A stretch of 64,000 nt of DNA from Enterobacterales bacterium (GTDB lineage Bacteria > Pseudomonadota > Gammaproteobacteria > Enterobacterales > Kangiellaceae), in contig JAUZSK010000051.1 of NCBI GenBank assembly GCA_030949565.1, positions 62,001 through 126,000 of the forward strand. Reading direction: 5' to 3'. Under the pieces are notes generated by a model. It was not told where the DNA came from. It did no database searches and saw only the letters and a program-made list of their open reading frames with translations. The stretch's first letter is position 1. Every line of letters begins with the position of its first letter. The position numbers and the translations under genes were made by a program. Positions 230 to 55,108 of this stretch are shown here, piece after piece.

Positions 230-1498
230 CTAGGCTTGATAGGCACCCACTACAAGCGCAAAAACAAATCCAAAAATTAGCAGAATAAAATAGATAAATC
301 CCATCGCCATGGACTTAATGATCGTAATTTTCCAAGACTGTTGGTAGAATCGTTTTACAGCTATAAAAATATAAAGAAAAATCCAAATTAAAGTCAACGA
401 TTTAATCAATGAAAAAAATAGGCTTCCCTGTTGCAACAACCAAGTATCACTAGCAATTAAAACCTCTTCAAGTTTCAATGAAACTAACCGAGTAATCAAC
501 AATAAATAGGCAAATGAATGGTTATGTAGAAGAAAAATCAAATGCTCGGTGTAATAGCGTTTGGAAGACATATAAAATAATTTTAGAATAATCCCAAATA
601 ATGGTAATAAAATAAACATCATATAAGGCAGTGATTCTATAACGCTCTCATTCAAAGGTTTTGGATTTTTTTTCCATTGGTTTATTTTTGGCTCAATGAC
701 TGTAAGGAATGTTTTAAAAATACCATCGTCTAATTTATCAAGGCCGATAAATTTTTGCGTTTCATCATCCCATTCAAGGCTTACTGATTGATCGATATCC
801 TCCTCATTACTTGCTGAATCCTTTTTACGGATATGTTTAGCCTCTACCAGATTATTATTGGCTGTTTCTATAAATACTGGATCTTTGGCTTGCTTTGTAT
901 CCTTTAAACTGTAATTAATATCTTTCTTGCTTTTGGGAATATCTTCAACCATTTCCTGATTCGCTTGAATAATAGCTGGATCGGTTTCTGAGTTATTGCC
1001 AATCTTTGCTATATCACTATCAATGTTAGTTGCTGTTTTAGCCACTTCATCGCTGATGGTAACGCTGTTATCGAACTGTATTACTGGGTCAGGATTGATG
1101 CTTTTTATAGTAATGATTAGTAAAAGACTAGTAATCAGGTAAAGACGAAAAGGCAATACATAATGGAAACGCCGACCTTTAATATATTCCAGACTTAATT
1201 TAGCGGGTTTGAAAATTAAAGGGATAATGGAATGCTTAAGTCTTGAATCATAGCCCAAGGTATCATCTAGCAATTCTTTGATAACTTCACCAAAGAATTT
1301 AATCATGCTTTTTGATGATTGACCACATTCATGACAAAAAAGTCCCGACAAGGCGGTACCACAATTAGAACAGGCTATTTGTTTTGACGTTTGCTTTTCT
1401 GGTGTTGTCGATGGCCCTTCATTGACCGAAATATCATCTGAGGTAGCAGTTTGATTCATAAAAGGATGGTCCGTAACAATATCGAGACTTAAATTCAA
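230..1498 (-). CDS. DUF3667-like membrane protein with N-terminal zinc ribbon
   Basis: ORF 422 aa; CSNCGTALSGLFCHECGQ zinc ribbon followed by several hydrophobic segments. Confidence 0.7.
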   Translation of the reverse strand: MNLSLDIVTDHPFMNQTATSDDISVNEGPSTTPEKQTSKQIACSNCGTALSGLFCHECGQSSKSMIKFFGEVIKELLDDTLGYDSRLKHSIIPLIFKPAKLSLEYIKGRRFHYVLPFRLYLITSLLLIITIKSINPDPVIQFDNSVTISDEVAKTATNIDSDIAKIGNNSETDPAIIQANQEMVEDIPKSKKDINYSLKDTKQAKDPVFIETANNNLVEAKHIRKKDSASNEEDIDQSVSLEWDDETQKFIGLDKLDDGIFKTFLTVIEPKINQWKKNPKPLNESVIESLPYMMFILLPLFGIILKLFYMSSKRYYTEHLIFLLHNHSFAYLLLITRLVSLKLEEVLIASDTWLLQQGSLFFSLIKSLTLIWIFLYIFIAVKRFYQQSWKITIIKSMAMGFIYFILLIFGFVFALVVGAYQA

Positions 1499-1598: not shown

Positions 1599-3068
1599 CT
1601 AGCTAAAAGGTAATCCAAACCGAAAGATGGCCCCGCCAGCAGAGTGATTACTTGCCCGGATATCGCTTCCCAGTAGTGCTATTAACTTTTTGCTAATCGT
1701 CAGACCTAAGCCAATGTGTCGCTGGTCATCATCCACTGCCTTGTCACCTCGATAACGAGCATCGAATATGAAGGGGATATCTTCTTCAGCAATGCCCTCT
1801 CCGGTATCCTGAATACTGATAATGACTTGCTGACTTGAATCGGCCTTTTGTGCGCGTAATATTATTTTTCCTTTATTTGGTGTATGCCGTAAAGCGTTCT
1901 CCAGTAAATTGGTTAAAACTCTTTCAAGCTTTGCGATATCCGTAGTGACTCTGAGTGAGTCATCTGCAATATCAATGACCAGTTGGATGCTCTTTTTATC
2001 CGCCTTTTGTGATAACTTATCTTTAAGATCATAAAGAAGTTCTGCAATAGGGAAAGTTTCTAAAGTGACAGTAACATGGCCAGATTCAAGATGAGCCAAC
2101 TCAAAAATCTGGTCCACAAAACCATTGATTGACTTGGCGCTTTTTAAACAAAAACCCACATAACGTTCAATTTCATCGGTGGTTAGTTTGGCCCGCCTAA
2201 TTTGAATTGTTTCGAGAAAACCTTGTAATGAAGCAAGCGGCGTTCGCAAGTCGTGCGATAAGTGTGCTAACAGTTCTCTACGTTCGCCATCAACTTTTTC
2301 TAGCAGATTAAATTGTTGGTTAACTTTATCGATTAGTTGGTTAAATACGAGTGTTAACGCCTCTACTTCACCACTCGACGTTTTTGTCTCTATTCTTGGC
2401 AATTCATTATCAAAATCAGTCTCCCTTAGACTATTCACCTGCTGGGTAAGTTGTTTAAGTGGACTCACAAAAAAATGAAAACTAACCAAAAGAATTAACA
2501 AAAGAAAAAGTAGTGAGGTTGCCCCTATCACACCGATGACTTGTATACTCTCATTGCTTCTTACTCCGGCAAAAATACTATCATAAATTTTACCACCGAT
2601 AATTACAAATAGATAACCTTTAACTTGGTCGTTTTCAACAATAGGAGCCAGCGAAAATATTTTTTGTTGGTCGCTACGGGGATCATCCGCATAAATAGGA
2701 AAGGCGGCACCTTGTAAATATTCATTAAGCAAGGGCTGCATGTCAATTTTTTTACGTACCACTTCGCCCGGTTTTGCTGAATAGGATAAAATGTGTCCTT
2801 TCGGGTCGATCACATAAAACTCAAAATTTGGCCCTAAAATCATCATTGAATGAAATAGGTTTTCAAGCGCCTTAGAATCGTGAATACCTTTTTTAAGCAG
2901 CGGATTGTCGCCAACTAAGTGAGTTGCCAACGATTGATGTAATGCTTGCTCTGCCTTGTCCCTTGAGATTGATTCTAATGCTCTAGTCACATAAACAAAA
3001 GACACCACAATTAATAAAAATATACTGAGTAGCGTCACGGAAAGTTTTTGGTAAAGTGATAATTTCAT
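1599..3068 (-). CDS. Two-component sensor histidine kinase (HAMP, HisKA, HATPase)
   Basis: LSHDLRTPLASLQGFLE H-box, NLLENALRHTP N-box, GLGLTISKKL G-box; likely start MKLSLYQKLS at 3068. Confidence 0.9.
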   Translation of the reverse strand: MKLSLYQKLSVTLLSIFLLIVVSFVYVTRALESISRDKAEQALHQSLATHLVGDNPLLKKGIHDSKALENLFHSMMILGPNFEFYVIDPKGHILSYSAKPGEVVRKKIDMQPLLNEYLQGAAFPIYADDPRSDQQKIFSLAPIVENDQVKGYLFVIIGGKIYDSIFAGVRSNESIQVIGVIGATSLLFLLLILLVSFHFFVSPLKQLTQQVNSLRETDFDNELPRIETKTSSGEVEALTLVFNQLIDKVNQQFNLLEKVDGERRELLAHLSHDLRTPLASLQGFLETIQIRRAKLTTDEIERYVGFCLKSAKSINGFVDQIFELAHLESGHVTVTLETFPIAELLYDLKDKLSQKADKKSIQLVIDIADDSLRVTTDIAKLERVLTNLLENALRHTPNKGKIILRAQKADSSQQVIISIQDTGEGIAEEDIPFIFDARYRGDKAVDDDQRHIGLGLTISKKLIALLGSDIRASNHSAGGAIFRFGLPFS

Positions 3069-3075
3069 GATTATC

Positions 3076-3813
3076 CTATTGCTTAATAAAGCAGCTTTTT
3101 TCGCTAAGACGATAACCAACGCCCCAGACGGTTTGGATTATTTTGTCACCACCATCGGCTATTTGCAGCTTATTCCTGAGTCGATTTATATGGGAATTAA
3201 CCGTATGCTCATAACCTATATGATCATAGCCCCAAACATTGTCCAGTAATTGGCTGCGAGAAAAGACTCGCTCAGGGTGACGGATAAAATAGTAAATCAA
3301 ATCAAATTCTAAAGCGGTTAAATCGACTATTTGATCTTGAATACTGGCCAATCGCTTGCTAGGATCGATGATTAAATCACCCATAACAACCTTGGCTGAA
3401 GATTCTTCCTTGGCTGTTGGATTAGTCGATAATAAATAGCTTTTGCTTCGCCGAATAATCGCTCGAACCCGCGCCTGCAACGCCGGAACGCTAAAGGGTT
3501 TGGTCATATAATCATCGGCCCCTTGCTCCAAACCAATAATTTGGTCCAGCTCAGAACTCTTAGCGGTTAACATTAAAATCGGCTGCGCCGGTTTTTTAAC
3601 GCGTACTTCTTTACACACTTCAAGACCTGACAAGCCCGGCAGCATAATATCTAAGATAATTAAATCAAAATCCTGACGGCTAATTCGCTCAACTGCATGA
3701 CTACCATTGTCACAAATTTCACAATGAAATGAAATATCTTCAAGGCTTACACGAAGCAATTCAGCGATATCGCTATCATCTTCAACAATTAGTATTTTCT
3801 GTTCTGATTGCAT
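3076..3813 (-). CDS. OmpR-family response regulator
   Basis: ILIVEDDSDIAELL, DLIILDIMLPGLSG, LMLTAK, winged-helix C-terminus with TVWGVGYRL; adjacent to the kinase. Confidence 0.93.
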   Translation of the reverse strand: MQSEQKILIVEDDSDIAELLRVSLEDISFHCEICDNGSHAVERISRQDFDLIILDIMLPGLSGLEVCKEVRVKKPAQPILMLTAKSSELDQIIGLEQGADDYMTKPFSVPALQARVRAIIRRSKSYLLSTNPTAKEESSAKVVMGDLIIDPSKRLASIQDQIVDLTALEFDLIYYFIRHPERVFSRSQLLDNVWGYDHIGYEHTVNSHINRLRNKLQIADGGDKIIQTVWGVGYRLSEKSCFIKQ

Positions 3814-6027: not shown

Positions 6028-6336
6028 TCAGCTTTTAGATGTATATTGTAGGAAATTGTCCCGGTTCCATGTGAGATATCTCTCAATAGTGCCTGTCTAG
6101 TTTTGTTTTTGGCAAATAGCCTTCACCGCTTGATTGCGCAAGATGCGCAAATAGAATGGCTATTTAAGAATAAATTTGCAGCCCTGCGTGGACGCAAAAA
6201 TGTTGGAAGAGGTTTTTTGAGTGCTACTAAATTGCATATTGAATTGTGTGTTTTATTTTATCTGCTAAAAGAATTAGTCTATTTTTATCATCTGTAAACG
6301 GGAAAGTAAAGTAAAAATTAAAATATCAAGCCCGCT

Positions 6337-40938: not shown

Positions 40939-41799
40939 ATGACTATTGACAGCAAAAAAAGATTAAAGCCCCTTAATCTCTTGGTTCCACAGGGTAATAT
41001 TGAATCTTATGTGACGGCTATTCATGCAATCCCGGTATTATCCGCGGAAGAAGAGAGAAGCCTTGCGATTCACTACAAAGAAACCGGCGATCTCGATGCG
41101 GTTCGTAACTTAATCATGTCGCATTTACGCTTTGTCGCTCATATCGCAAGAAGTTACAGTGGTTACGGTTTACCACAAGCTGATTTAATTCAAGAAGGTA
41201 ACGTCGGCCTGATGAAAGCGGTTAAACGCTTCGACCCCGAAGTAGGTGTTCGTTTAATTTCCTTTGCGGTTCATTGGATTAAAGCTGAAATACATGAGTT
41301 TGTGCTTAAAAACTGGCGTGTGGTGAAAATTGCAACCACCAAAGCGCAGCGAAAATTATTTTTTAACCTTCGTAGCGCTAAAAAATCACAGAACTGGTTA
41401 ACGAACGATGAAGTTAAAGCCGTAGCTGATGATTTAGGTGTGGCTGAAATCGAAGTAAGGCGTATGGAAAGTCGTTTAAACTCTCGTGATACAGCTTTTG
41501 ACTTACCCGCTGATGCGGATGATGAAACTAGCTATGCTCCCGCTGCCTACTTAGAATCAGCAAACAGCGATCCAGCCGATGTCTTAGAGAAAGAAGATTG
41601 GCAAGACCATAATCAGCAGATGCTTATGGGGGCTCTTAAAGATCTCGACAGCCGTAGCCAAGCGATTTTGGCGGCCCGTTGGCTCAGTGATGAAAAAGCC
41701 ACCTTGCAAGAGCTTGCTGACCGTTACCAAGTGTCCGCCGAAAGGATCAGACAACTTGAAAAAAATGCGATGAAAAAGCTAAAGGCGAGCATGCAGTAA
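40939..41799 (+). CDS. rpoH: RNA polymerase sigma-32 factor
   Basis: [63 protein letters not shown] RpoH box. Confidence 0.98.
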
Positions 41800-41822
41800 G
41801 TAGATATTCTTACAATTAATTT

Positions 41823-41848
41823 AAAAAAGCGCCTACGGGCGCTTTTTT
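41823..41848 (+). terminator. Intrinsic terminator after rpoH
   Basis: AAAAAAGCGCCtacGGGCGCTTTTTT. Confidence 0.92.
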
Positions 41849-42127
41849 ATTGCTAAGACACTAATATTTAATGCTTTTCTAATGGATTTATCGGTAAAAA
41901 CGAACTCAAAGCTTGATTCTATTGATCCAGATCCTCGCATATTGACAAAAATAAGGATAATATGGCATATCGACAATTTCTAGAAGGTAAATCCGTTACA
42001 AACATTGAGTAGTACCCGACCCGTTAACTCGCAGTAAAGCTGATACTGACAGATGTCTGTAATCCTGCTCGTCGAGATTCAATGCTGAATTCTAGGATCA
42101 AATCGATTCAACTAGGAGGCATTATCA

Positions 42128-53666: not shown

Positions 53667-53691
53667 AAAAGAAAGGGCGATAAAATCGCCC
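53667..53691 (-). terminator. Intrinsic terminator of the candidate sRNA
   Basis: Minus strand GGGCGAT-TTT-ATCGCCC-TTTCTTTT. Confidence 0.85.
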
Positions 53692-53806
53692 ATATCCGTT
53701 TCTTCATCCGATGAAAAATTCGCTCCCTGCTATGTCCCTATTTATCAAATCCTTGATAAGAGCTCCTTGCTCTTGTTCCTTTATTCCGGCGTCTTCCCTG
53801 TCGCTT
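53667..53806 (-). ncRNA. Candidate CsrA/RsmA-sequestering sRNA (CsrB/RsmY/RsmZ-like)
   Basis: Nine GGA motifs in ~130 nt, including AGAGC-AAGGA-GCUCU and UUAUCAA-GGAU-UUGAUAA hairpins; ends in GGGCGAUuuuAUCGCCCUUUCUUUU; upstream TTGCTA-N16-TATTCT promoter-like sequence. Confidence 0.8.
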
Positions 53807-53813
53807 GATAGAT

Positions 53814-53841
53814 AGAATAGTCGAATAAAAAGCTTTAGCAA
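53814..53841 (-). promoter_or_regulatory. Candidate sigma-70 promoter of the sRNA
   Basis: TTGCTA (53836-53841), 16-nt spacer, TATTCT (53814-53819) on minus strand. Confidence 0.5.
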
Positions 53842-54033
53842 CCCAGTATTTTAAAATATTTTGGGCTATATTAGGATTTTCTTATGTAGAAAATTACTCT
53901 ATTATCTTATTATTCAATGATTTAAGCTATTTTTTGACCTCCTACGGTCATTTGTCTTACAGTCAAAATGGTGTATTTCCCTAGTCAATTGCAGAGATCT
54001 CGCACACCAACTATGGACAATGTCTCACAAGTT

Positions 54034-54139: not shown

Positions 54140-55108
54140 TTGAGGATATTAAATATGCTTCCCCTTATAAAAGTTATTGCTCATCAGAGCCCCCAAGTTC
54201 AAATTCAACAGCTAGTTGATGCGCTCTATCAATTTATGGAGCAATCATCAATCGCACAAAATAGGGCCCGATGTTATATTCAATGGATGCTTCAATTATC
54301 CAGATTTCATAATTTTCAGCATCCTTCTGATCTCTGTCAATCCGATATAGAGACCTATTTATCCTCTCTAGCGATCGATGGCAGCTACTCCCCTCAAACT
54401 CAACAACAAGCCGTTAACGCCTTTTACTTTTTGTATGAACACTTTCTACAAATTCCACTGCCTAATCTCCGCTACTCACAAATCAAAAATCGTCGCAGTT
54501 TTAACGACCGATTTGGCGCAGCAAATTGTCAAAAAATAGTAGCCCTTTTAAAGCCAACCAGCCGATTAATTGCTGAATTAGCACTTTTAGGTAAGCTTAA
54601 GTTACCGCAGGTTGTGAAATTAAGACTTGCTGATGTTGATATTAAAGCTAACCGCATTGCGGTACGTGACGCTCAAGGTAAAACAGCCTTTTGTTTAGCT
54701 ATCCCACTCAAATTAATATTGGATCTTCGAATCCAGTTAATGCGAGTAAAGCAATCAAGTAATGAATTCGCTGGTTTAAATAATTTATCCAATAGTAAAG
54801 CATTGCTATTCCCTTTAATGAATCAAGCAAATAATAGCCAATCATCACGATCCATGCTGTTACTATTGGTCAAAAACGATATTAAGATAGCGATCGCTAA
54901 CTATGCTCAGCAGAACCAACAGAAAAATAGAAAGAAAGTGCCTCAAGTCCTATCACGGAGTTTATTAGGTGGGCTTTCAGCTTCGTCAAAGCTCTATCGT
55001 GCCTCTACGCGGTTAGAAAAGGAATCAATTAACAAGGACCGGCAAATAGCCTTTCAGTTGGATACAGTTTTTTCACAAGCTCAGCAGTACAAAAGAGGAG
55101 CAGCTTAA
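54140..55108 (+). CDS. Tyrosine-recombinase/integron-integrase-like protein lacking recognisable catalytic residues
   Basis: QNRARCYIQWMLQLSRFHNFQHPSDLCQSDIETYLSSLAIDGSYSPQTQQQAVNAFYFLYEHFLQIPLP resembles IntI N-domain; C-half lacks GTGLR, HTLRH and Tyr motifs. Confidence 0.75.
   Translation: MRILNMLPLIKVIAHQSPQVQIQQLVDALYQFMEQSSIAQNRARCYIQWMLQLSRFHNFQHPSDLCQSDIETYLSSLAIDGSYSPQTQQQAVNAFYFLYEHFLQIPLPNLRYSQIKNRRSFNDRFGAANCQKIVALLKPTSRLIAELALLGKLKLPQVVKLRLADVDIKANRIAVRDAQGKTAFCLAIPLKLILDLRIQLMRVKQSSNEFAGLNNLSNSKALLFPLMNQANNSQSSRSMLLLLVKNDIKIAIANYAQQNQQKNRKKVPQVLSRSLLGGLSASSKLYRASTRLEKESINKDRQIAFQLDTVFSQAQQYKRGAA

Follow-up and report, generated by a model that had tools for sequence, protein, structure and literature searches.

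The intergenic region preceding an integrase-like gene in the genome of an Enterobacterales bacterium of the Kangiellaceae raises the question of whether it encodes a small regulatory RNA able to sequester CsrA. The region was analysed within a contig stretch of 64,000 nucleotides (the window), together with the rest of the genome and those of its relatives. An initial annotation, made from the letters alone, had read the minus strand as a candidate sRNA of the CsrB/RsmY/RsmZ type, and this reading is supported by an alignment to RF00166, by conserved GGA motifs and hairpins, by UvrY boxes and by the CsrA, UvrY and probable BarA encoded in the same genome. We consider, with a probability of about 0.93, that the locus encodes an sRNA that is activated by GacA/UvrY, sequesters CsrA and represents an unannotated member of the CsrB/RsmZ class in the Kangiellaceae.

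Anatomy of the predicted RNA

The candidate lies on the minus strand at 53810-53667 and is about 140 nt long, its 5′ start being most plausibly placed near 53806. Its elements and those of its upstream region are provided in Table 1. The sequence, the nine GGA motifs, hairpins 2 and 3 and the terminator had all been described initially and were all recovered here; in the folding proposed at that time as a check, the loop GGA of these two hairpins was unpaired with a probability near 1. Seven of the nine motifs are ANGGA, a number reached by 1 of 5000 dinucleotide shuffles, while nine GGA were reached by 312 of 5000, so that the GGA count alone is less striking than the ANGGA count. Nowhere else in the window, on either strand, do 144 nt contain at least 8 GGA or at least 5 ANGGA. 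According to the pairing probabilities most GGA are unpaired, and two of the nine (at 53787 and 53779) are predicted to be mostly paired in the free RNA. The terminator stem is GGGCGATTTTATCGCCC-TTTCTTTT, and three terminator-like sites were counted in the region vs. 0.2 in shuffles. The overall folding energy was ordinary (z −0.63) and, therefore, the case for the sRNA is independent of its stability.

Table 1. Features of the predicted sRNA and its upstream region (window positions) and further candidate RNAs in congeners (by locus).
Feature	Position	Strand	Basis
RsmZ-like CsrA-sponge sRNA (predicted)	53667..53810	-	R1/R2 covariance models 142.5 / 128.1 bits; RF00166 30.4 bits over 53775-53667
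Hairpin 1, GCG..CGC, loop with AGGGA	53789..53804	-	2 pairs with double changes, stem kept across 9 sequences
Hairpin 2, AAGAGC-AAGGA-GCUCUU	53758..53774	-	loop GGA unpaired probability 1.0
Hairpin 3, AUCAA-GGAU-UUGAU	53744..53757	-	GGA unpaired probability 0.99-1.0
Mini-hairpin GC-AGGGA-GC (GCAGGGAGC), most conserved motif	53722..53730	-	alignment of relatives
Hairpin 5, UUUUUCA-UCGGA-UGAAGAA	53700..53718	-	sequence and structure comparison
Intrinsic terminator GGGCGAUUUUAUCGCCC and U-rich tail	53667..53691	-	terminator scan
Weak promoter TTGCTA-N16-TATTCT	53814..53841	-	TATTCT repeated at same place in several relatives
Putative UvrY/GacA box TGTGCGAGATCTCTGCAA, centre about -191	53989..54006	-	14/18 to E. 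coli csrB box
Putative UvrY/GacA box TGTGAGACATTGTCCATA, centre about -214	54012..54029	-	16/18 to E. coli and Salmonella csrC boxes
18-GGA candidate RNA of G008/G009	L138 and L140, about 442-811	-	UvrY-box search and GGA count
Second GGA-rich RNA candidate of G010	L143, 1180-1440	+	behind two tandem UvrY-like boxes (C205), ends in terminator

Search for known RNA families

No Rfam family reached its gathering score anywhere in the window. In a permissive covariance scan, PrrB_RsmZ (RF00166) was the only meaningful match at the sRNA (30.4 bits, E 3.7e-5), aligned end to end over model positions 1-133 of 133, and the genome of 3.6 Mb gave no other RF00166 match at E ≤ 10. The covariance search suggested in the initial annotation was therefore borne out as to the matching of the whole PrrB_RsmZ model and fell short as to the curated cut-off, which is 44 bits. 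Since its score is below that cut-off, the sRNA is not assigned to RF00166, although it very probably works like RsmZ. Nowhere in the genome was RF00018 (CsrB; cut-off 71 bits) matched at E ≤ 0.05, and none of 40 family genomes passed the Rfam cut-off for either family. RF00166 matches at E 0.01-0.05 were distrusted because control genomes such as those of B. subtilis and T. maritima also match at this level. S15-leader, sraA and MicX matches at the locus (E 0.26-2.6) were attributed to chance, those of sraA and MicX falling on the terminator stem.

Two covariance models were built from the family itself, R1 from nine Kangiellaceae sequences only and R2 from ten relatives with the copy of the window left out, and both recognise the sRNA (Table 1). 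Another R2 match, at 41725-41852, was weak (15.3 bits) and was rejected, as it resembles a terminator after a gene end.

Promoter, UvrY boxes and proposed function

The initially proposed promoter is present, and its TATTCT recurs in relatives, but it is weak and was not listed by the consensus promoter scan. An otherwise weak promoter would fit an activated one. The two upstream boxes, which the initial annotation did not contain, were found at the expected distance using csrB and csrC reference sequences (PMC4682653). The 14/18 score was reached by 4 of 2000 shuffled 300-nt upstream regions, and the 16/18 score by none of 2000. The boxes stand 23 bp apart. In E. coli the same register of 23 bp results from the csrB box, whose centre is at −183, and a partial second repeat 5 bp downstream of it (PMC4682653). 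A box at about −187 to −218 is kept in nearly every homologue, nearly all having one at about −212 and most a second at about −190. Two homologues deviate: G004 (L065), with one at −187, and the second of two tandem sRNA copies in the congener G011 (L035/L039, G011:C280:742-1077), which lacks its own UvrY box within reach.

The partner proteins are encoded in the same genome. The CsrA gene follows alaS, and its product is near-identical to E. coli CsrA, including L4 and R44. A gene beside uvrC gives an equivalog match to UvrY/SirA/GacA. In addition, a 933-aa protein carries an sCache_4 domain, which among 14 controls was matched only in E. coli, and is likely BarA or a BarA-like kinase.

To the anatomy, conservation, boxes and partner genes observed in the sequences, Csr/Rsm biology (reviewed in PMC7652899) adds the expected transcription, activation by UvrY, CsrA binding and sequestration. 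UvrY (GacA) would be phosphorylated by BarA and, once phosphorylated, would bind the tandem pair of boxes located some 190-215 bp upstream, thereby activating the weak sigma-70 promoter. The transcript would be terminated at the intrinsic terminator, and the resulting non-coding RNA of ~140 nt would titrate CsrA off its mRNA targets. Up to nine GGA sites could be available to CsrA dimers, and about five of these sites lie in hairpin loops.

Conservation in relatives and alternative explanations

BLAST detected syntenic homologues of the sRNA in three congeners, with 79-85% identity, and others in further family members, including Aliikangiella and its relatives, with 68-73% identity. Within the genus the sRNA adjoins priA and an integrase-like gene. 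In the alignment of nine sequences, six GGA triplets occupy invariant columns and two others are present throughout but displaced by one base; the ninth is restricted to the genus. RNAalifold alone on the MAFFT alignment gave only 18 pairs with little covariation and, therefore, the hairpin structure was defined manually and its pairs were counted in a separate step. With its six helices, 91.6% of the cells were paired and 7 pairs had double changes across these homologues, vs. 33.9-53.2% and 1-3 pairs in slid-structure controls. The initial annotation had pointed to close relatives as the place where the GGA and hairpin pattern might be lost; both are kept there, with covariation. The evidence from relatives is much stronger than that from the Rfam match. 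R1 found relatives in 37 of the 40 family genomes, those in genera g3-g6 being weak. In the wider order, R1 matches coincide with loci assigned by Rfam to CsrB, three of them above the cut-off, which gives independent support for placing the sRNA in the CsrB/RsmZ class.

A minus-strand gene (53448-52339) begins 219 nt past the terminator, and the RNA might be regarded as its cis-acting leader, either a CsrA-bound 5′ UTR or an attenuator, instead of a trans-acting sponge. This is very improbable, considering that in the congener G010 (L041) the RNA faces the end of priA head-to-head and is followed by no gene on its own strand, that the RNA is conserved and the downstream gene is not, and that the RNA closes with a strong terminator. 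Just as improbable is that the locus holds a Csr sRNA copy that has decayed or lost its activity. Copies come and go, as some congeners are without the RNA and others have further GGA-rich RNAs, but in the window the GGA sites, the hairpins, TATTCT, the terminator and both UvrY boxes are all intact, and no other such RNA was found in this genome. Finally, it is scarcely credible that a small coding sequence accounts for the GGA repeats (Shine-Dalgarno-like repeats with short ORFs), given that, although a short ATG frame opens in the last hairpin (ATGAAGAAACGG...), indels in the A-run and the terminator loop of relatives break the frame, the stems stay paired through double changes, and no 60-aa ORF overlaps the RNA.

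Comparison with known Csr/Rsm RNAs

The CsrA-sequestering sRNA proposed here is unannotated, but it is of a well-known kind. It is like PrrB/RsmZ (RF00166) of Pseudomonas in length class, GGA-loop hairpins, terminator, upstream GacA-type boxes and end-to-end alignment, in which its GCAGG(G/A)AGC element aligns with the RsmZ consensus GCAgGAaGC. It differs from RF00166 in its score of 30.4 bits vs. the cut-off of 44, in the tandem arrangement of its two boxes, 23 bp apart, and in its 5′ ~35 nt, which carry one further GGA hairpin and lie outside the Rfam alignment. With CsrB/RsmB (RF00018) and CsrC of Enterobacterales it shares multiple loop ANGGA and upstream UvrY inverted repeats, one of its boxes matching the csrC-type box at 16/18, whereas it has under half the length of the CsrB model and nine GGA. 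GGA in hairpin loops are also common to the sRNA and the TwoAYGGAY RNA (RF01731, of the same Rfam clan, CL00106), which has no match at the sRNA locus.

In genus g5, probably Kangiella, L004, L006 and L014 carry a CsrB-like RNA of greater length, in which CAGGA recurs very regularly in the hairpin loops and which scores below the RF00018 cut-off. At L006 a TwoAYGGAY match above the cut-off (2964-3091) stands beside it.

Among the papers searched, none relevant to Kangiella and CsrA was found. The sRNA of the window would extend the BarA/UvrY-CsrA-sRNA circuit to the Kangiellaceae, where the curated Rfam cut-offs miss probable Csr sponges. The results suggest that a UvrY box combined with GGA density is a better search recipe, and it yielded further unrecognised sponge candidates.

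Other sponge candidates in the genus

Neither G008 nor G009, both congeners, has an RNA of the ~140-nt kind beside priA or any R1 match. They have another candidate RNA of about 300 nt, which contains 18 GGA (16 of them ANGGA) and is preceded by a UvrY box some 200 bp upstream, so that in both kinds of RNA the boxes stand at about the same upstream distance. This longer candidate gave no meaningful Rfam match (RsmY at E 0.2), and BLAST found it whole only in these two genomes, its terminator-like end alone matching elsewhere. An additional GGA-rich candidate was found in G010 (Table 1). Sponge RNAs may thus turn over within one genus, as judged from a small number of genomes, one of which is only 75% complete. 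We lean slightly toward the view that this genus swaps its CsrA sponge for non-homologous RNAs, the window genome, G010, G011 and G012 having the ~140-nt RsmZ-like RNA and G008 and G009 the ~300-nt one.

Other UvrY-like boxes and neighbouring genes

A second tandem UvrY-like pair, TGTAGGAAATTGTCCCGG and TGTGAGATATCTCTCAAT, is present in the window at 6047-6087 (+), within an intergenic region of 0.7 kb and again with a spacing of 23 bp; the chance expectation for a single 14/18 box is about one per window. It was rejected as a second sponge site, as there is no Rfam match and no GGA cluster near it. In the whole genome the UvrY box gave ten near-matches and the reversed control pattern gave two, with palindromic sites counted on both strands. 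No GGA-rich RNA was found within about 1 kb of the other UvrY-like boxes of the genome, and these boxes are possible further UvrY targets.

The integrase-like gene (window 54140-55108, +) encodes an integron-integrase-like protein in which the N-terminal SAM-like domain was matched and the catalytic half was undetected. A homologue of it (33-43% identity) adjoins the RNA in three congeners.
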